Positions 5,622 through 14,555 of a stretch of DNA of 43,717 bases are shown here, piece by piece. The first letter of the stretch is position 1, and the number at the start of each line of letters is the position of its first letter. The stretch is from a virus. The DNA lies in the IMG/VR virus record IMGVR_UViG_3300020472_002670, positions 1 through 43,717 of that record. One strand, written 5' to 3'. Position numbers and translations under genes: made by a program. Below the pieces are notes generated by a model, which saw only the letters and a program-made list of their open reading frames with translations, did not search any database and was not told the origin of the DNA.

Positions 5622-6594
5622 TAAATATTTCCAACCAATGTTCTGTCATTTCTTTCATCATTGTTTCAAATGTATATTTAGGTTTCCAACCTAATGTTTC
5701 TCTTATTTTTGTAGAATCACCTTTTAGATATTTTAATTCTTCTGCTCTTAAAAATTTAGGATTCTGTGTAACATAATCTTTGTAATCTAAATCAAGTAAT
5801 CCGAACACATATTCACACATCTCTCTTACAGAATGTGTAACACCTGTTGCTACAACAAAATCATCTGGTGTATCGTGATTCACAATCATATTCATAGCTC
5901 TCACATAATCATATGAATGTCCCCAATCACGATAGGCATCCATATTACCAAGTTCTAATTTATCTTGTAATCCTAATTTAATTCTCGCTGCGGCCTTAAC
6001 AACTTTGTTAGTTACAAAATTTGAACCTCTTCTTGGCGATTCGTGATTAAACAATATACCATTTACAGCAAATAGATTGTGAGCGAATCTATAATGTCTC
6101 ACAATGTTATAACCAAATACTTTAGCACAACCATAAGGACTTGTTGGCTCCATCTTTGTAGTTTCTCTTTGGTAGCCATCTTCCTCAACACTCCTACCAA
6201 ACATCTCTGATGATGATGCTTGATAAAACCTAGCAGTAGGACAATGATATTTATAAGCCTCTAACATATTTAATACACCAAGAGCATTTGTTTGAACGGT
6301 AAATTGAGGAACATCAAAACTTATCCTAACATGCGATTGTGCACCAATATTATAAATCTCATCAGGTTTGATTGTACCTAACATTCTTTCCAATGAACTT
6401 ACATCAAGTAAGTCACCATACTCTGTGTTGACTCCATTACCAACTAAATGATCAATTCTACTTTCTTGATTTTCAGCTATAGAATTTCTTCTAACTATTC
6501 CATACACCTCATAATCTTTTTCTAATAAATGTTCTGCAAGATAACTACCATCTTGTCCGTTAATTCCTGTTATAAACGCTTTTCTTTTAGCCAT
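5611..6594 (-). CDS. gmd: GDP-mannose 4,6-dehydratase
   Basis: A 327-residue extended SDR with close family signatures: GINGQDGSYL at about 10-19, QSHVRISFD at about 86-94, SSSEMFG at 127-133 with the catalytic Ser/Glu, YGCAK with Tyr154/Lys158, and NHESPRRGSNFVTNKV. These are diagnostic for Gmd, which converts GDP-D-mannose to GDP-4-keto-6-deoxymannose, precursor of fucose, colitose, perosamine and rhamnose. Length matches the usual 320-370 residues. GGAGAT precedes the ATG. A DegT-type aminotransferase directly upstream suggests possible conversion to an amino sugar such as perosamine, although that enzyme is shortened. Confidence 0.97.
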   Translation of the reverse strand: MAKRKAFITGINGQDGSYLAEHLLEKDYEVYGIVRRNSIAENQESRIDHLVGNGVNTEYGDLLDVSSLERMLGTIKPDEIYNIGAQSHVRISFDVPQFTVQTNALGVLNMLEAYKYHCPTARFYQASSSEMFGRSVEEDGYQRETTKMEPTSPYGCAKVFGYNIVRHYRFAHNLFAVNGILFNHESPRRGSNFVTNKVVKAAARIKLGLQDKLELGNMDAYRDWGHSYDYVRAMNMIVNHDTPDDFVVATGVTHSVREMCEYVFGLLDLDYKDYVTQNPKFLRAEELKYLKGDSTKIRETLGWKPKYTFETMMKEMTEHWLEIFNDK

Positions 6595-7183
6595 TTTTAA
6601 ATATCTCCATTTGTGTTAAGTCGGGCCAATCAGTAACCACCCATTGTCTCGGTTTAGTTTTAATAGCTTTTGGTAATTTCTTTAATCCATTAGCTGCTGT
6701 TTCAGGTGCCATATAATAATGATAACCTCTTGTTGTAATATTTTGTTCACGCCAAGGTATATCTGGATGTCTACCATCGTATGACATTTTTTTAAGTTCC
6801 ATAGCTGCTTCTTTATTATCTGTTAATATCATTCCACCTCTACCTAAACTTAAATGTTTTTGAAATTGAAAACTCAATGACATAAATGAACCAGATATGT
6901 AACTATCTTCTCTCCATAATACAGCTGCATCATAAATGTTAGTACCACCTATTTTGTAATAATCTGTCCACTCTTCATCCTTCCATTTTAAATCAATACC
7001 AAGTTTATCTGCTAAAAATGGAACTGATAGATAAGTTCTTTTTGGAACTTCAATAGATTGTATATCCATATATCTTAAACACAATTCTATTCCGTGTGTA
7101 CAACAATCAACCGCTACACCATAAGGTGCACCGAACCAATGTGCTACTTCATTTTCAAAATCACTCACTACTTTAAAACTCAT
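6587..7183 (-). CDS. DegT/DnrJ/EryC1-type PLP aminotransferase, short form
   Basis: A 198-residue protein matching the large domain of sugar aminotransferases. CCTHGIELCL (about 27-36) corresponds to the GT-AL phosphate-binding region, IYDAAVLW (about 83-90) carries the Asp that pairs with the PLP ring, and SFQFQKHLSLGRGGMI has the probable Schiff-base lysine at Lys109. Usual length is 360-400 residues, so most of the C-terminal small domain is missing. No continuation is seen in any frame before the next gene. It may be a minimal active form, a partner subunit or a remnant. AAGGG lies upstream of the chosen ATG. It overlaps gmd by 8 bases. Confidence 0.8.
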   Translation of the reverse strand: MSFKVVSDFENEVAHWFGAPYGVAVDCCTHGIELCLRYMDIQSIEVPKRTYLSVPFLADKLGIDLKWKDEEWTDYYKIGGTNIYDAAVLWREDSYISGSFMSLSFQFQKHLSLGRGGMILTDNKEAAMELKKMSYDGRHPDIPWREQNITTRGYHYYMAPETAANGLKKLPKAIKTKPRQWVVTDWPDLTQMEIFKNG

Positions 7184-7959: not shown

Positions 7960-9105
7960 TTACTCCCAAAACATTGTGTTATGATTGATATTATCAATTA
8001 TATCTTTTTTAATTTCTTCATTATAAGTAGCAGTTTTTAAAATAACAACCGCATCATTTATATCTTTTAATATCTTTGGTGACTCAACCATAAAATTAGT
8101 ACCATACAATCTCTTACCTTGTTTCATCTCACTATTATCTAAAATACAATTAATCTTTTCTGTATCTAATCCATTATATATTAAAAATTGTGAAAATATA
8201 TGAGCACCAAACAAATATATATTTCCTTCACATCTTTTAATCAGAGTATTTAAAACTCTAACATCACCTTTATAATAATTTACAAAATCTAAAAATACTT
8301 TTTTATTTTTCTTATAAAGAGAACTTGGCCATTTTACTACCGTCGGTGTTACTTTAACACACGCATAAAAAATACAAGGTAGTTCTTCGTGATGATGTTT
8401 TTTTATTATTTTAAACCCAACTTGACTTAATAATAAATCAATAATTTCTTCTGTCAAAAATGCAGTGTGTTCAAAGTTTAATGCATTTGTAAATTTATTT
8501 TCAATATAATGATATAAATTTGGAACACTAAATATATGTAAAGTGTCTTTATTTATTTGTTGATGAATCGTTTTTAAAAATGTTAAAGGTTCATAAGTAT
8601 GTTCAAAAACATGCGAGTGTACAATAGCATCGTACTCTTTTTCAATTACATAGTTCTCATCAAACCATTCTCGAAGATGAACAAAATTATCCATAACAAC
8701 TTCTTCATATGTATGATTAGGTTCAAGAGCTGTCCAATGATTATCTTTATTTTTAGATAAATACAATTTACCCAATCTACCTTTTCCAGCTCCTATCTCT
8801 AAAGCTGTTTTAACTTTTAGAGTTTCAATGAAATCAGCTAAAGCTATATCGTGATTCTTCCAAACTTCTCCAATACCATCATTGTGTGGAAACTTATAAA
8901 CTAATTCTAATGGAAATAATTCTCTCAACTGAATTACTCCACTATCTTTACAAATATCCCAAGTTTGATTCATTACAACATCTTCACTAACATCTTGACT
9001 TGTACACGCCATAGACGCTGGAACATTTTCAAATGTATGTAGGTGTTCTAAATTAGATTCACCTGTCACTATACTTTTATCTCTAATTATTGTATTATAT
9101 TTCAA
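7960..9105 (-). CDS. sugar C-methyltransferase-like SAM methyltransferase
   Basis: A 381-residue three-part protein. Residues about 1-65 resemble the N-terminal zinc-binding domain of NovU/TylC3-type C-methyltransferases (S-LEHLHTFENVP, then WDICKDSGVIQL), but most zinc cysteines are replaced. A Rossmann core has motif I LEIGAGKGRLG at 102-112 and HSHVFEH about 60 residues later. The C-terminal domain (LFGAHIFSQFL, then CILDNS-MKQGKRLYGTN) matches the family's usual tail. These enzymes methylate keto-sugars on nucleotide diphosphates. The start is a TTG at 9105 inside the end of the upstream HAD gene; it is chosen because the family's N-terminal domain begins there. Confidence 0.78.
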   Translation of the reverse strand: MKYNTIIRDKSIVTGESNLEHLHTFENVPASMACTSQDVSEDVVMNQTWDICKDSGVIQLRELFPLELVYKFPHNDGIGEVWKNHDIALADFIETLKVKTALEIGAGKGRLGKLYLSKNKDNHWTALEPNHTYEEVVMDNFVHLREWFDENYVIEKEYDAIVHSHVFEHTYEPLTFLKTIHQQINKDTLHIFSVPNLYHYIENKFTNALNFEHTAFLTEEIIDLLLSQVGFKIIKKHHHEELPCIFYACVKVTPTVVKWPSSLYKKNKKVFLDFVNYYKGDVRVLNTLIKRCEGNIYLFGAHIFSQFLIYNGLDTEKINCILDNSEMKQGKRLYGTNFMVESPKILKDINDAVVILKTATYNEEIKKDIIDNINHNTMFWE

Positions 9106-9460
9106 CAGATTCCAATCCTTTATTTCTTTCTAAATTTATAGCGAAACAAGTATCATCATCTCTACTTGGTTTTCTATCATTTATAATATATCTGAAAGCT
9201 CCACCAAAACCCATAACTAACTGGTCATAATTTATACCAGCTCTTTGCATTTGTTTAATAGTAGCTTCTCTAGCACTTTCTTTTCTACCTGTTGTGATTA
9301 CAATATGATAACCTTTTGAATCCCATTCTCTTAACTTGTCGTGAACACCAGGTAAAACTTCTAATTCATAACTTGGATTTTGAATATCAATAGGATTAGA
9401 ATGTTTTACCAAAGTACCATCTAAATCACAAAATATTGTTTTTGATTCACCTTTATACAT
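9095..9460 (-). CDS. HAD-family phosphatase, small
   Basis: A 121-residue haloacid dehalogenase-fold protein. Motif I is CDLDGTL (Asp12 nucleophile, Asp14 acid/base), motif II is ITTGR at about 52-56, and the C-terminal NDRKPSRDDD segment supplies the acidic motif III/IV cluster. No large cap domain is present, as in small sugar-phosphate or polynucleotide-kinase-3'-phosphatase-like HADs. The ATG at 9460 has AAGGAG eight bases upstream. Tight overlap with the GatZ-like gene and the methyltransferase suggests dephosphorylation of a sugar-phosphate intermediate in the glycan pathway. Confidence 0.85.
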   Translation of the reverse strand: MYKGESKTIFCDLDGTLVKHSNPIDIQNPSYELEVLPGVHDKLREWDSKGYHIVITTGRKESAREATIKQMQRAGINYDQLVMGFGGAFRYIINDRKPSRDDDTCFAINLERNKGLESVEI

Positions 9461-10412
9461 CAAGTAAACTCCTTAACTTATTTTTAATAACTGATTTAAT
9501 TTTGTTATCGATATTAGGTTTCATTTCTAAAAACTTCTCATCTGATAAAACATAATGTCCACAAATTTTAATAAGTTCTTCTTTATTATCATATGGTACA
9601 AAACCTTTATCTACCCATTTCTCCCATCTTCTTGAAGAAAAACAAATTCTATAATAATCTTCCACCCCGCGTCCCATAATATTCATATGTTGTAAGTAAC
9701 ACATAGTTTCTAATTGTCCAAACTCTGGTGCGATATTAATTGAATCTAAACCAATATTAAATTTATCTTTAATCTCTTGATTGGATAGATAATCTCCATT
9801 ATGTTCTTTACTTAACACACTCCAATATTTACACACATCAATGAACTCACTTAATCTAGCTTCATCATACTTTCCTGTATTAATTTGTTTACCTAAATCT
9901 ATACCAACTCCTGATTGTACTACTGCATATTTAATGTTATCGAAGAAATCAAACTCCGAAGCAGTTCTTAATAATATATTTAATTCATCAGGTGTAAACT
10001 TTCTGATAGCTTCTTCTGTTCCAACTTCAAACAATACCTTTGGATTTATATCATAAATCATATTCATATTTTGTAAAGTCTCATCTATTCCAGCATTTAA
10101 TTCTGGATATTTTTTCCACGGATCTATATGAATAATATCAAGATGTTCTGCATCAGCTTGAAAAGAACCAACTCCATCATCTTCTACATAACCTTGTCCT
10201 GCTCCTCCGTGATCTCTTTCAATTGGAACTCTACCATTTACATATTTTGAAAATTCTTCTGTTGTCCAATTATTAACATAACCACCACTAAATTCAACTT
10301 GTCTTCGTGATGGAATGAATCCAATCTGTTTACCATTCTCTTCTGTAAATTCGATTACCGCATCTACTACATTCTTACTCATCGGGCCTATCCAAAATTT
10401 AATATTATTCAT
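9453..10412 (-). CDS. GatZ/KbaZ-like TIM-barrel protein (tagatose-bisphosphate aldolase superfamily)
   Basis: A 319-residue protein. Several spaced segments fit the GatZ/KbaZ (tagatose-6-phosphate kinase-like, non-catalytic aldolase subunit) pattern: PSRRQVEFSGGYVNNW near 34-49, ERDHGGAGQG near 84-93, HIDPWKKYPEL, FEVGTEEAIR, QSGVGIDLG, a KEHNGDYLS motif and INIAPEFGQ. DH, HID, EVGTE, EH and APEFG sit at expected strand ends of an aldolase barrel. I infer binding of a phosphorylated sugar, with aldol or isomerase chemistry, in a biosynthetic rather than catabolic context, because its neighbours are a HAD phosphatase and an AroE-like protein. Substrate unknown. AGGAAT precedes the ATG. Confidence 0.65.
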   Translation of the reverse strand: MNNIKFWIGPMSKNVVDAVIEFTEENGKQIGFIPSRRQVEFSGGYVNNWTTEEFSKYVNGRVPIERDHGGAGQGYVEDDGVGSFQADAEHLDIIHIDPWKKYPELNAGIDETLQNMNMIYDINPKVLFEVGTEEAIRKFTPDELNILLRTASEFDFFDNIKYAVVQSGVGIDLGKQINTGKYDEARLSEFIDVCKYWSVLSKEHNGDYLSNQEIKDKFNIGLDSINIAPEFGQLETMCYLQHMNIMGRGVEDYYRICFSSRRWEKWVDKGFVPYDNKEELIKICGHYVLSDEKFLEMKPNIDNKIKSVIKNKLRSLLDV

Positions 10413-11025
10413 AATCTATTCCTGTATAAAGTTTGAATTGTGCTTTCGCTTGTTCTAAAGCTATTCTTTTACCTATCGGTGTAAATGGTCTTCCATCAAT
10501 CACCTTATTATTAGTAGCTATAACATCAATTGGTGTAGCGTTAAATAATGTTTCATTTTTCAAAGTATCAATTAAACTCCAAGTGTCTCTTGTTATTATT
10601 GTATATTTAATATCTAACAAATTACAAGCGTATTGGACTGCTTTACTAAAACCACCATTACCTAAAATATATAAATGACTATGAACTGATTTTAAAATAT
10701 CCATAACACCTATATAATCAGTATTATATGATTTTAATCGTCCATCATCATTAATTATTGTATTCGCTGAACCAATTTTACGAAATGATTCATCCCAATC
10801 ATCTACAAACTTATTCACCTCTATCTTAAAAGGCATACTCACGGCACATCCTTTTATATTCAATGTTCTTACAGCTTGAATGGATTTTTCTATATTATCA
10901 GAATAAAAAGATTTATAAATAGCATCTATATTATTATACATAAACGCGGCATTAAAAAACTCACATCCATTGTTACCTGGATTTGATGAAAATGAACAAT
11001 ATATTTTTGTATCTTTATTTATCAT
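10405..11025 (-). CDS. shikimate dehydrogenase-like (AroE family) short oxidoreductase
   Basis: A 206-residue protein with the AroE layout. CSFSSNPGNN-CEFFNAAF (about 10-28) corresponds to the shikimate-pocket Ser region. Then SMPFK has the catalytic-type Lys67, IGSANTI is at 84-90, and SYNTDYIG at about 99-106 has the catalytic-type Asp103. A dinucleotide-binding GNGGFSKA is at 122-129. Shikimate dehydrogenases are about 270-290 residues; this one lacks much of the C-terminal half of the NADP domain. In a phage glycan cluster it more likely reduces a different polyol or cyclitol-like compound than serves aromatic amino-acid synthesis, but that is inference. Confidence 0.75.
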   Translation of the reverse strand: MINKDTKIYCSFSSNPGNNGCEFFNAAFMYNNIDAIYKSFYSDNIEKSIQAVRTLNIKGCAVSMPFKIEVNKFVDDWDESFRKIGSANTIINDDGRLKSYNTDYIGVMDILKSVHSHLYILGNGGFSKAVQYACNLLDIKYTIITRDTWSLIDTLKNETLFNATPIDVIATNNKVIDGRPFTPIGKRIALEQAKAQFKLYTGIDYE

Positions 11026-12925
11026 TTATATTTTGTAACATTTCTTTTGCTTTAAAGAACAATAAGTTACCAAACTCTTTTTCGTGTAATGGTGACATAT
11101 TTAAAAATATTAAAGCTGTTATCAATTGTACTTTTTCTAAATCATAACCATTTCTTGATATCCATTTTTCATACATTGGTTTGAATTTATCAAGCTCTAG
11201 CTCGGATTCATAGGTATAAGTTACAACATTTTGATCAATTAAACAAGCAAAATTTTCATTATCTTTCATTAATTTATATGACATTAAAATTCCACCATAC
11301 ATTTTAGCTAAATCATAATAGACATCACCAACATTACTACCAGCAAAATCTTGTCTCCAATCTAACAAATGAAATTCACCATCTCCATAGATTACATTAT
11401 CAAATTGTAAATCACCGTGAAATAGTTTTGTAGGTATTCCCTCATAAACTTTACCCCAATTAAAATCTATTAATAACTCATTAATAGTGTTTGTTTCAAC
11501 ACCATTAACAATATGTTTTCCGCTGAATGAATTATCTCTATTCTCTAAAAATAATTGTAATCTCTCTGAAGTTTTGGTTAAATAAAAAGCTTGACACTTA
11601 TCAAAAAACTCCGTGTCTTCAAGTGTCTCTTTTTGCCATAGATTTTCCTTCGCGAAATTTAAAAATTGTTTCCAAGTTTTTAAATCATTACAATTATAAA
11701 GTGTATCACCATTAACCCACTCGTAAGCGTATAGATTATCTCCTGTATAATTTAATGTTGGTACTAAATCATCTAAATCATCAGTTCTTTCTATTCTACC
11801 TTTTATAAAGTTTTTATCAGATGATAACTTTATAAAATTGTTTTTGACTTTATATAGAAATTCTCCATTTGTTTTTGGTATACTATAATTTTCAGATTTT
11901 TCAAATAACTTTTTAGCTCTCATATAATTATCAACAGTTCCAACATCATACCAATCAAACTTTTTAGCTTTCATACTTGAATATTTATCTATATTATAAT
12001 AAGCACTTACAATTTCTCCACCCTCAACATCAAGTTCATCCCAAAATGTTTCATAATCATAAACACTAGCCAATCCAATAAACGCGTACTCATATCCATT
12101 TTTATCTTTATTTTTCAAATCAGTAACATCACCATTATCAGTATGAACCGTAGAATAAAGTTCTGGTATACTTGTAGGATAAAGTCCTAACCAATTGTCA
12201 TCTATCTTTGGTAGTTCATCTGAAATAATTGTATCAGCGGTTACCCAAACAAATGGTTTCTGTAAATGCTCTTTACATTTATCAATTGAATACGCTGGTC
12301 CTGTTCCTTCACCTTCGTATTTATCTACTTCAACAAATTTGAATGTTCTGTCTGGATGAGCAGCTTCACAATATTCTTTAACCACATCACCTTTGTAACC
12401 AAGTGCGATAACTATCTCATATTCCTTTGGTGTTTTATCTATCATATGTGATATTATAGCTTTGTTATCTAATGGTAACAATCCTTTATTGATGTGGTTT
12501 GATAAATTTTCTAATCTACTACCAACACCAGCTGCTAGTATACATAAAGCTGGTTTCATATGTTCGTGTTCTATCTTTCCTGAACCTCTATTTGAATCAT
12601 CTGATATTCTAATCACATCATCAACTTCAGGTGTTGATACTTCTTGTAGTATGATATCAGTAACAGCGATAACTCTATGTTTTTTAGGTGGTTCAACCGT
12701 AAAAAACTCACCAGCTTTCATTATCTTTTTCTCAACAACACCTTCGTCATTTTCTAACCAAACTTCAGCTGTACCATCTATTATAAAGTTAGTTTCTAAC
12801 TTTTGTTCGTGATATTGATAGCTAGTTTTTGTTCCAGCGTTGATATAAATTCTTTTATAACAATACTTATCATTAAGTTCTAACCATACTTCTTTTCCCC
12901 AGGGTTTGTAAACCGTTTTAGACAT
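11015..12925 (-). CDS. cupin + sugar nucleotidyltransferase + aminoglycoside-phosphotransferase-like kinase fusion
   Basis: A 636-residue three-domain protein. Residues 1-~110 are a type II mannose-6-phosphate-isomerase-like cupin (KPWGKEVW at 7-14, YHEQKLE at 38-44, IDGTAEVWL). From about 126, LAAGVGSRL at 130-138 and Lys147 mark a GT-A sugar-1-phosphate nucleotidyltransferase, with DVGTVDNY near 327-334. From about 350 an APH/choline-kinase-like domain follows, with HGDLQFDN at 503-510 and LDWRQD near 521-526. Such a protein could phosphorylate and activate one sugar. The ATG at 12925 has AGGAGA eight bases upstream; the longer reading into the sulfotransferase gene is unlikely. Confidence 0.85.
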   Translation of the reverse strand: MSKTVYKPWGKEVWLELNDKYCYKRIYINAGTKTSYQYHEQKLETNFIIDGTAEVWLENDEGVVEKKIMKAGEFFTVEPPKKHRVIAVTDIILQEVSTPEVDDVIRISDDSNRGSGKIEHEHMKPALCILAAGVGSRLENLSNHINKGLLPLDNKAIISHMIDKTPKEYEIVIALGYKGDVVKEYCEAAHPDRTFKFVEVDKYEGEGTGPAYSIDKCKEHLQKPFVWVTADTIISDELPKIDDNWLGLYPTSIPELYSTVHTDNGDVTDLKNKDKNGYEYAFIGLASVYDYETFWDELDVEGGEIVSAYYNIDKYSSMKAKKFDWYDVGTVDNYMRAKKLFEKSENYSIPKTNGEFLYKVKNNFIKLSSDKNFIKGRIERTDDLDDLVPTLNYTGDNLYAYEWVNGDTLYNCNDLKTWKQFLNFAKENLWQKETLEDTEFFDKCQAFYLTKTSERLQLFLENRDNSFSGKHIVNGVETNTINELLIDFNWGKVYEGIPTKLFHGDLQFDNVIYGDGEFHLLDWRQDFAGSNVGDVYYDLAKMYGGILMSYKLMKDNENFACLIDQNVVTYTYESELELDKFKPMYEKWISRNGYDLEKVQLITALIFLNMSPLHEKEFGNLLFFKAKEMLQNINDK

Positions 12926-13538
12926 TAAATTTTCTCCTATATTTAAAACATTTAAAATCATCTTCATATATTTCAGCTACTCTTTTCATAGACCACTCAC
13001 TATAATATTCTTTATATGGTTTATGTTCACTTTTAGCGTAGTGTCCCAATGATACACAATCTGTACCAGTTATTTCACAATATTTTTTCCAATCATTATT
13101 TATATTTTCAACTTTACCAATGAAGTTATATTTTTTCTTTGAAGAATAAAATAAACTTGTTTGTGTTTGATAATGTAATCTTTTTGGCTTTCCATCTGAA
13201 TCTAAAATATTATTCTCAACAAAATCATCAAAATTAGGATATGTTTGTCTATCTATATCATTCCACGCTGAAACCAATCTAGCAAATGGATTTCTAGCAA
13301 AGGTAAATTTAAAATATTCATAATATAATTCTCTATCAGTTATTCTATTTAACCACGCGTTAAATTCATTAGGATTATCTTTTTTAATTATCCAGCCACC
13401 CATTGGTTGTAGAGCTTTTCTAAAAATAGTTGTACCTGCTACTTTACCTGGTTTAAGATAGATTCTTTGAAATTTTGGATGAACACAAATACTCATCTGT
13501 ATTCTGTCATTTTGTTTTATATGGTTAACCCAATCCAT
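12918..13538 (-). CDS. sulfotransferase (PAPS-dependent, Sulfotransfer_2-like)
   Basis: A 206-residue protein with both PAPS-binding signatures. The 5'-phosphosulfate loop KPGKVAGTT is at about 29-37, and the 3'-phosphate motif RNPFARLVSAW is at 82-92. A later FIGKVENINNDW segment matches Sulfotransfer_2 carbohydrate sulfotransferases. The enzyme would move sulfate from PAPS to a glycan hydroxyl, which needs PAPS made by the host. The ATG at 13538 is chosen because GGGAG lies six bases upstream; longer in-frame starts lie inside the preceding gene. Sulfation fits a marine virus or host glycan. Confidence 0.85.
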   Translation of the reverse strand: MDWVNHIKQNDRIQMSICVHPKFQRIYLKPGKVAGTTIFRKALQPMGGWIIKKDNPNEFNAWLNRITDRELYYEYFKFTFARNPFARLVSAWNDIDRQTYPNFDDFVENNILDSDGKPKRLHYQTQTSLFYSSKKKYNFIGKVENINNDWKKYCEITGTDCVSLGHYAKSEHKPYKEYYSEWSMKRVAEIYEDDFKCFKYRRKFNV

Positions 13539-13539
13539 T

Positions 13540-14067
13540 TTAACTCCCATTGAAAACAACTCCATATAACTCTAACAACTCTACATTATAAACCATACAA
13601 GTTTTTTTAACTCTGTCTTTTAGATTCAAAAATAACTCAACATCATTTCCTATATCTGTATATAAATCTTCACTATCCAACATAATATGTTTTATCTTTC
13701 CAGTATCAAATAGTTTATCAAGATTCAAAACACCTCTTAAAGTTTCTATTTTAGGAACAAAAGATACTCCTTCAGGTAACATTTCACATATTAAATTTAC
13801 CTCTGATACTTCTTCTATGTTAGATGTAGCAAAATACTTTATATTTTTATATTTTTTAACCTTATCAATAGCTTCTGGTAAAGATAATGATGGGATTGGT
13901 GGTTTTGATCTTCCTTTTGGATAATCCAAAAATATATCATAATCCACATTTACAAATTTATTTAATTCTTTTTCATCTTTTACATGCGCCATATTAATTC
14001 TTACGACTACATTTTCTACATTTTTAAACTCATCTAATGTCAATAAATGATTTGATAATAATATCAT
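13540..14067 (-). CDS. pyruvate kinase/HpcH-like TIM-barrel domain protein
   Basis: A 175-residue protein resembling a trimmed phosphoenolpyruvate/pyruvate-superfamily barrel. VVRINMAH at 21-28 looks like the R-N-sH region of pyruvate kinase. FVPKIETLRGVLNLDKL near 102-118 closely follows the KIE--eGv-Nld-I motif shared by pyruvate kinase and HpcH/CitE lyases, and HIMLDSEDLYTDIG near 126-139 follows the D-GDL--E motif. It is far shorter than either family, so catalysis is uncertain. Context suggests a C-C lyase or PEP/pyruvate-handling step in the glycan pathway. GGAGG lies upstream of the ATG, at the end of the small membrane gene. Confidence 0.55.
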   Translation of the reverse strand: MILLSNHLLTLDEFKNVENVVVRINMAHVKDEKELNKFVNVDYDIFLDYPKGRSKPPIPSLSLPEAIDKVKKYKNIKYFATSNIEEVSEVNLICEMLPEGVSFVPKIETLRGVLNLDKLFDTGKIKHIMLDSEDLYTDIGNDVELFLNLKDRVKKTCMVYNVELLELYGVVFNGS

Positions 14068-14068
14068 T

Positions 14069-14218
14069 TTATTTTCCTCCTAATAGTTTATTTAAATAAT
14101 TACTAACAAATGATAAACCAACAGCTACCAATACATCAAAGATTGGTAACGCTCCTGGTACTCCAAAATTCCATAAGGTTACGAGAAATAACCATATTGT
14201 AAAAACTTTATAATCCAT
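14069..14218 (-). CDS. small membrane protein (49 aa)
   Basis: A 49-residue ORF beginning MDYKVFTIWLFLVTLWNFG. It starts at an ATG with AAGGAAAG upstream, overlaps the preceding nucleotidyltransferase gene by 11 bases and ends two bases before the next ATG. Residues about 5-20 and 25-42 are hydrophobic and could form one or two membrane passes split by a GVPGALP turn; the C-terminus is basic. It fills an otherwise unused 140-base gap in a fully packed operon. Function unknown. Confidence 0.6.
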   Translation of the reverse strand: MDYKVFTIWLFLVTLWNFGVPGALPIFDVLVAVGLSFVSNYLNKLLGGK

Positions 14219-14555
14219 ATTCTTTCCTTATATTTGTTGCTGATATTTTTTTAATATTTTCTGGTGGTTTATGTTCTATTACATCATACCCAACATCTCT
14301 TCCATAGTTTACAGATTCAATTGGTGGGATTGAAATAACTTTAACAGAACCAGTTAAAACTTCATTTTGTAATTCAGTTTCTATTTTTAAAATAACATTC
14401 TGTGTTGTAAGTGGATTCTTATCAGGTTCAGTATCGTGTATATCCATAACAGCTATACATACTTTTTTACCTAACTTTAATCTCTGTTCTATCAACCACT
14501 TATGTCCATCGTGAAATGGTTGAAACCTACCTATAAACATTGAATATCTATCCAT
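14208..14555 (-). CDS. cytidylyltransferase-fold nucleotidyltransferase (NMN adenylyltransferase-like)
   Basis: A 115-residue nucleotidyltransferase with GRFQPFHDGH at 9-18 (the HxGH-type ATP site) and SATNIRKE at about 104-111, the ISxTxIR motif. These are typical of NadM/NMN adenylyltransferases and related enzymes, which join a nucleotide to a phosphorylated small molecule. Usual length is 160-180 residues, so this is a compact form. It may make NAD, feeding the many NAD-dependent dehydrogenases here, or activate a sugar phosphate. It overlaps the carbamoyltransferase gene by 8 bases. Confidence 0.8.
   Translation of the reverse strand: MDRYSMFIGRFQPFHDGHKWLIEQRLKLGKKVCIAVMDIHDTEPDKNPLTTQNVILKIETELQNEVLTGSVKVISIPPIESVNYGRDVGYDVIEHKPPENIKKISATNIRKEYGL

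Follow-up and report, generated by a model that had tools for sequence, protein, structure and literature searches.

A predicted cassette for an activated rare sugar or alditol in the glycan gene cluster of a marine T4-like phage, with counterparts in bacterial glycan clusters

What product would be made by tagatose- and shikimate-type enzymes encoded within the glycosyltransferase cluster of a marine phage? This question is raised by a marine T4-like phage fragment of 43,717 bases (IMG/VR record IMGVR_UViG_3300020472_002670; the window below refers to this whole stretch of DNA), for which an earlier note had read six open reading frames (ORFs) at 9095-14067, encoding relatives of a HAD phosphatase, GatZ, AroE, a triple fusion, a sulfotransferase and pyruvate kinase (PK)/HpcH, as one coupled block that could make a new activated building block. 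All six ORFs were found there on the minus strand. Our analysis makes it reasonably probable that the genes at 7960-12967 (methyltransferase, HAD, GatZ-like, AroE-like and fusion) form one cassette that supplies the surrounding glycosyltransferase cluster with an activated rare sugar or alditol. The likely role of this five-gene set is to convert a common sugar to a rare form, which is then activated for use in the surface coat.

Over 100 further virus fragments carry the five-gene set, as do some bacteria. With the GatZ-like protein as query, viral contigs yielded 42 relatives, mostly at 43-57% identity, and scanning with the AroE-like protein identified 1 relative when a single sequence was the query and 78 loci when an alignment was used. 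Across the first set of 49 viral loci, GatZ was present in 47, the fusion or its parts in 46 and HAD in 43, and the 22 loci possessing AroE (the window's included) all had a fusion of the window type; AroE-less loci, where read, encoded the cupin in an ORF of its own, and their kinase-nucleotidyltransferase was only ~30% identical. Viral loci seeded with the fusion contained GatZ (74/80), cupin (74/80), AroE (64/80) and HAD (44/80), and a kinase-nucleotidyltransferase was found in 63 of 75 AroE-seeded loci, where 9 of the 12 lacking it were provirus-edge loci with AroE matches of only 35-39%. Membership of the set remained steady while its order and fusion state varied, with GatZ before or after AroE and HAD before or after the block.

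Among the 80 loci kept from a bacterial and archaeal genome collection, GatZ together with the kinase-nucleotidyltransferase was identified in glycan clusters of a Yanofskybacteria, a Bacteriovoracaceae, an archaeon and one further bacterium, and most of these four also had a cupin, a KdsC-like HAD or a methyltransferase. Sampling of the Yanofskybacteria phylum gave a locus (L143) with consecutive genes for a methyltransferase (47%), a cupin 79% identical to the window's, GatZ, kinase-nucleotidyltransferase, a full-length AroE and a KdsC-like HAD, and sampling of the Bacteriovoracaceae phylum gave one (L341) with AroE, kinase-nucleotidyltransferase, cupin and GatZ; both sets lie in bacterial glycan clusters. 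Partial sets were observed in L066, L067, L068, L081 and L145, and two further loci in bacterial metagenome-assembled genomes (L050 and L064) were phage-like in appearance. Some kinase-nucleotidyltransferase matches in Patescibacteria (L134, L136 and L142; genomes G261 and G251) contained the in-frame stops TAA, TAG and TGA, possibly reflecting pseudogenes, frame ends or assembly errors.

The GatZ position was occupied by other enzymes in some loci. In L144, L146 and L147 it was taken by ribulose-phosphate 3-epimerase (Rpe) and 6-phospho-3-hexuloisomerase (HxlB), both of which score over curated cut-offs in L146, and no cupin was seen in these three loci. A GmhA-like isomerase with a transketolase was found in 17 phage loci (L305-L320 and L330; some are near-copies and two are incomplete), the transketolase being split into two ORFs where read closely and AroE being retained in every such locus that extends far enough. 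Separate N and C transketolase halves beside a GmhA-like isomerase were also seen in L209 (7931-10242), L207, L261 and L273. Judged by their families, both replacement pairs would be sets for ketose-phosphate remodelling. A common pathway with matched substrates leads to the expectation that partner content clusters on the kinase tree, and this was observed: on a tree of 127 kinase-nucleotidyltransferase proteins the GatZ/transketolase/Rpe slot required 4 changes and AroE presence 3, and all partner labels together required 14 in comparison to a shuffled mean of 56, a clustering that near-copies favour. Support by the Shimodaira-Hasegawa-like approximate likelihood ratio test (SH-aLRT) was 100 for the transketolase clade and 97 for the phage clade with GatZ and AroE, and was weak for the two deepest branches.

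Alternatively, the block genes may be independent insertions into a variable phage glycan cluster that share no pathway, as the patchiness of the wider cluster and the separate variation of sulfotransferase and PK/HpcH-like genes could suggest. Reciprocal co-occurrence, the presence of the same set in two bacterial phyla and the clustering of labels on the tree make this very improbable, and the search for the same neighbourhood in viruses and bacteria that the earlier note had proposed found genes that recur together. We give about an even chance to a wider proposal for marine T4-like phages and for glycan clusters of Patescibacteria, Bdellovibrionota and an archaeon, namely a modular nucleotide-activation pathway in which swappable GatZ, Rpe plus HxlB, or GmhA plus split transketolase units feed a common phosphatase/(AroE)/kinase-nucleotidyltransferase line, which would yield a range of activated rare sugars or alditols and perhaps a new CDP-alditol among them.

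The window's GatZ-like protein had no match of its own in Pfam, PHROG or NCBIfam, including PF08013 and TIGR02810. Its AlphaFold model (predicted local distance difference test, pLDDT, 96) had as best fold matches the GatZ/KbaZ-family crystals 3txv and 2fiq (E 2e-13; template modelling score 0.72-0.77 on the query), which carry the name 'putative tagatose 6-phosphate kinase', with class II aldolases ranking next. Firmicutes relatives 28% identical to it pass the Pfam GatZ_KbaZ-like model PF08013, and the window protein appears from these comparisons to be a sister branch of the GatZ/KbaZ family, not a strict member. E. coli GatZ and KbaZ are reported to convert fructose-6-phosphate (F6P) to tagatose-6-phosphate (T6P), i.e. 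to be C4 epimerases, and a model-based proposal for E. coli GatZ assigns the roles of general base and Zn ligands to Asp87, His88, Glu171 and His257 (PMC11907403). These residues align to D67, H68, E133 and H204 of the window protein, and among 61 GatZ-like sequences D67, H68 and H204 were present in all (61/61 each) and E133 in 59, the other 2 having Asp. Structure models lacking catalytic pockets had been named in the earlier note as what would speak against it; in the structure prediction and active-site comparison the catalytic residues proved to be conserved. The aldol step that it had proposed is better worded as ketose-phosphate epimerisation by retro-aldol/aldol chemistry, because the E. 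coli proteins are reported C4 epimerases (PMC11907403).

The barrel could instead be a true aldolase that builds a new carbon skeleton, for example from dihydroxyacetone or dihydroxyacetone phosphate and an aldehyde, for subsequent reduction by AroE. It is a member of the class II aldolase superfamily and keeps the metal site and general base. Retro-aldol/aldol steps are in any case part of epimerisation by GatZ-family enzymes, the same slot is occupied elsewhere by transketolase, which acts on C-C bonds, and the positions of E44 and K279 are unlike those of the epimerase. We nevertheless consider this rather unlikely, as the characterised GatZ/KbaZ members epimerise (PMC11907403) and an epimerase with an isomerase (Rpe and HxlB) takes this slot in bacteria. 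A role as non-catalytic aldolase chaperone, suggested by the old database name of TIGR02810 ('non-catalytic subunit'), is scarcely credible: neither the window nor any of the loci searched gave a match to a GatY-like aldolase and a chaperone role is therefore disfavoured, the catalytic and metal residues are essentially invariant, and solo GatZ copies occur in Flavobacteriaceae. The chaperone assignment was rejected after this search. Solo GatZ genes (L051-L061, L063, L065 and L069) had unrelated gene contexts where read (L052 and L065). The Firmicutes relatives are those of L070-L129, where phosphotransferase system (PTS) genes adjoin GatZ in L072 and L119; the L072 operon, read closely, combined the GatZ relative with fructose-type PTS genes, a GmhB-like phosphatase and a phosphomannomutase-like gene, and a catabolic use of the same enzyme family is possible there.

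The fusion, whose true start is probably Met15 (about 12925), combines three domains, of which the cupin is a separate ORF in other phages. The cupin passes the type II phosphomannose isomerase (PMI) profile MannoseP_isomer (35.6 bits against a cut-off of 23.6) and matches the C-terminal part of TIGR01479. Kinase residues H517, G518, D519, N524 and D536 (HxDxxxxN and a downstream Asp) were invariant across 18 aligned rows; the Pfam APH score was under cut-off for the window protein and over it for L066. For the nucleotidyltransferase the nearest solved relative was LicC, the CTP:phosphocholine cytidylyltransferase (1jyk, 3.6e-13; profile 31-166, part of the domain), with glucose-1-phosphate and inositol-1-phosphate enzymes ranking close behind, and this likeness is a mere hint of CTP. 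A plasmid search gave no relative of the fusion. The APH fold also includes choline kinases and, with LicC as the closest solved relative, the fusion could be interpreted as activating a choline- or ethanolamine-like phosphate in the LicA/LicC manner while the sugar enzymes serve another branch. This is improbable, as the clades of the kinase-nucleotidyltransferase track their GatZ, AroE and transketolase partners, which is expected if the partners make the substrate, and as the LicC match is partial with the sugar- and inositol-phosphate enzymes close behind.

Motifs are intact in the HAD, kinase and nucleotidyltransferase proteins, and DxDGT and the other HAD motifs were kept in 125 homologues. 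The AroE-like protein matched the HI0607 profile (1NPY) at 4e-40, and its profile matches included 5-ketofructose reductase (7COK), a ketose-reducing homologue. It has the Shikimate_dh_N domain with catalytic Lys and Asp, and the substrate-domain Lys67 and Asp103, GxGG and Arg146 (the Lys/Asp pair and NADP motifs) were invariant in the alignment, but it is shortened (206 amino acids (aa) versus about 270-280 aa), lacking parts of the second Rossmann half, and scored far under the TIGR00507 cut-off in the full-Rossmann and equivalog test. A shikimate-pathway role was set aside, as the scans of the window showed no other shikimate enzyme. AroE matches in the phage collection, mostly Listeria, Salmonella and gut-sample records at ~23-34% identity, were set aside as most likely host DNA. 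Methyltransferase relatives adjoin GatZ, HAD or kinase in phage loci and the module in Patescibacteria and Bdellovibrionota, making the methyltransferase a frequent yet optional member.

For the activated-sugar cassette we infer substrates, step order, nucleotide, final product and use in glycan synthesis as follows. The GatZ-like enzyme would use Zn-dependent retro-aldol/aldol chemistry to invert C4 of a ketose phosphate, as in the F6P to T6P conversion by E. coli GatZ/KbaZ, and ketose-aldose interconversion may fall to the PMI-like cupin. The HAD enzyme would then strip the phosphate and so pull the equilibrium, and the AroE-like enzyme, where present, would reduce a keto group with NADPH, perhaps to an alditol. 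The APH domain would phosphorylate this product for nucleotide transfer by the LicC-like domain, with CTP as a first guess, and the methyltransferase may decorate the product.

Several observations weigh against this scheme. Many of the phage loci are near-copies, which inflates both the counts and the clustering, and cupin, AroE and HAD would together permit several step orders. One locus (L314, 7176-13448) holds GmhA and split transketolase as well as a GatZ 57% identical to the window's, next to AroE, and the slot units are therefore not strict alternatives. A lone GatZ of ~50% identity was found in 14 marine Flavobacteriaceae/Bacteroidetes genomes with a kinase-nucleotidyltransferase nowhere in the genome, indicating that the barrel can act outside the cassette pathway. 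By alignment, the E. coli GatZ pocket residues K279, E44 and C20 are changed to N226, I33 and G9 in the window protein, at three positions that distinguish E. coli GatZ from aldolases, and the substrate is therefore perhaps not F6P/T6P.

The coordinates of the cassette and its neighbours are given in Table 1. The window carries T4-kind genes in its right part (DNA polymerase, clamp loader, DnaB-like helicase, ribonucleotide reductase and UvsX-like), and the block lies in a minus-strand cluster at 0.9-26 kb with glycosyltransferases, GDP-mannose dehydratase, a DegT-type aminotransferase and carbamoyltransferase. Gene overlap, which the earlier note had taken as a sign of coupling, does exist in the block but is ordinary for this cluster (24 of 26 neighbouring pairs), and the PK/HpcH-like gene overlaps the sulfotransferase gene only; the signal above chance is recurrence elsewhere. 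One coupled block leading to an activated building block thus holds for the GatZ-like, AroE-like, HAD and fusion genes, which recur together, and not for the sulfotransferase and PK/HpcH-like genes, which travel apart, so that 9095-14067 is better started at 7960 with the methyltransferase and its sulfotransferase and PK/HpcH end placed outside the core.

Table 1. Features of the cassette and adjoining genes in the window
Feature	Coordinates	Strand	Basis
Methyltransferase (Methyltransf_23 and C-methyltransferase C-terminal domain)	7960..9105	-	Pfam; beside HAD
Small capless HAD phosphatase, 122 aa	9095..9463	-	Pfam HAD/PNKP models, 6e-7 to 2e-6
GatZ/KbaZ-like barrel, predicted Zn-dependent ketose-phosphate C4-epimerase or aldolase	9453..10412	-	Fold, residues
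Compact AroE-family reductase	10405..11025	-	Shikimate_dh_N, 6e-13
Triple fusion, PMI-like cupin / NTP transferase / APH kinase	11015..12967	-	Pfam and profile matches
Fusion domain 1, PMI-type cupin	12578..12967	-	Pfam MannoseP_isomer, 1.2e-8
Fusion domain 2, putative sugar/alditol-phosphate nucleotidyltransferase	11888..12559	-	Closest solved relative LicC
Fusion domain 3, APH-fold kinase	11015..11875	-	Invariant HGD...N and D motifs
Sulfotransferase, non-core neighbour	12918..13565	-	Match, 7e-16
Small PK/HpcH-like barrel, non-core neighbour	13540..14067	-	Weak sequence match, fold
Small cytidylyl/adenylyltransferase, non-core, partner of PK/HpcH-like gene	14208..14555	-	

The sulfotransferase and PK/HpcH-like genes are modules separate from the cassette core, as the sulfotransferase was missing from nearly all other cassette loci and both were rare there; the PK/HpcH-like gene was dropped as a block member after the neighbourhood comparison. 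Its protein is weak by sequence (HpcH, 1e-3), and a model with pLDDT of only 74 gave fold matches to HpcH/citramalyl-CoA lyase and pyruvate kinase at E about 1e-4. R23, K106, E108 and D134 of this 175 aa barrel were invariant in four relatives. It forms a recurring pair with the adjacent cytidylyltransferase in L015, L045 and L048, the latter two without GatZ. The backbone of L015 and L046 is that of the window (carbamoyltransferase, cytidylyltransferase, PK/HpcH and sulfotransferase, then GatZ, HAD, glycosyltransferase, DegT and GDP-mannose dehydratase), with activating enzymes of the other type, as in AroE-less loci, and AroE missing. The window's DegT-type aminotransferase (6587-7183) is just 198 aa in comparison to 360 in the Pfam model, and has relatives at 64-72% identity in L004, L015 and L035.

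The cassette is of the activated-sugar type, distinguished by its unusual combination of enzymes and by first steps that can be swapped, and can be compared with several known systems. The E. coli tagatose route by GatZ/KbaZ and HxpA (F6P to T6P to tagatose; PMC11907403) likewise combines a GatZ-family epimerase having the proposed D/H/E/H set with a HAD phosphatase, whereas the window protein is shorter than E. coli GatZ (320 versus 420 aa), with other pocket residues and 15% aligned identity (48 of 310), and its gene lies in a glycan cluster together with those for a reductase and for activating enzymes. AmgK/MurU and LicA/LicC, compared at the level of fold and coupling, also couple an APH-fold kinase to a nucleotidyltransferase that activates a phosphorylated compound, but the window pair is fused in one chain, to which a PMI-like cupin is added in this clade. 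GDP- and ADP-heptose pathways (GmhA, HldE/HddA, GmhB and HddC) share ketose-phosphate remodelling, HAD phosphatase, kinase and nucleotidyltransferase with the cassette, as well as a GmhA-like gene with its transketolase variant; the cassette has an APH kinase rather than PfkB/GHMP and, to our knowledge, heptose routes include neither an AroE reductase nor GatZ. Within the AroE family, the HI0607 shikimate dehydrogenase-like protein (1NPY) and 5-ketofructose reductase (7COK) share the substrate domain, catalytic Lys/Asp and NADP motifs with the window reductase, which differs in its shortened Rossmann half and lack of shikimate-pathway context. Every enzyme family is known already, and the combined pathway appears to be undescribed: we know of no pathway with this gene combination, and in agreement with the earlier note no description of one was found in the open literature, subscription papers being outside the search.

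If this reading is true, it would give a function to phage families listed as unknown (PHROG 4098 and 21938), extend the recently found GatZ C4-epimerases into glycan biosynthesis and place an AroE-type reductase outside aromatic metabolism, and the natural module swaps would make substrate assignment directly testable. Ocean phages would then carry whole private sugar-activation pathways, seen also in bacteria such as Patescibacteria.

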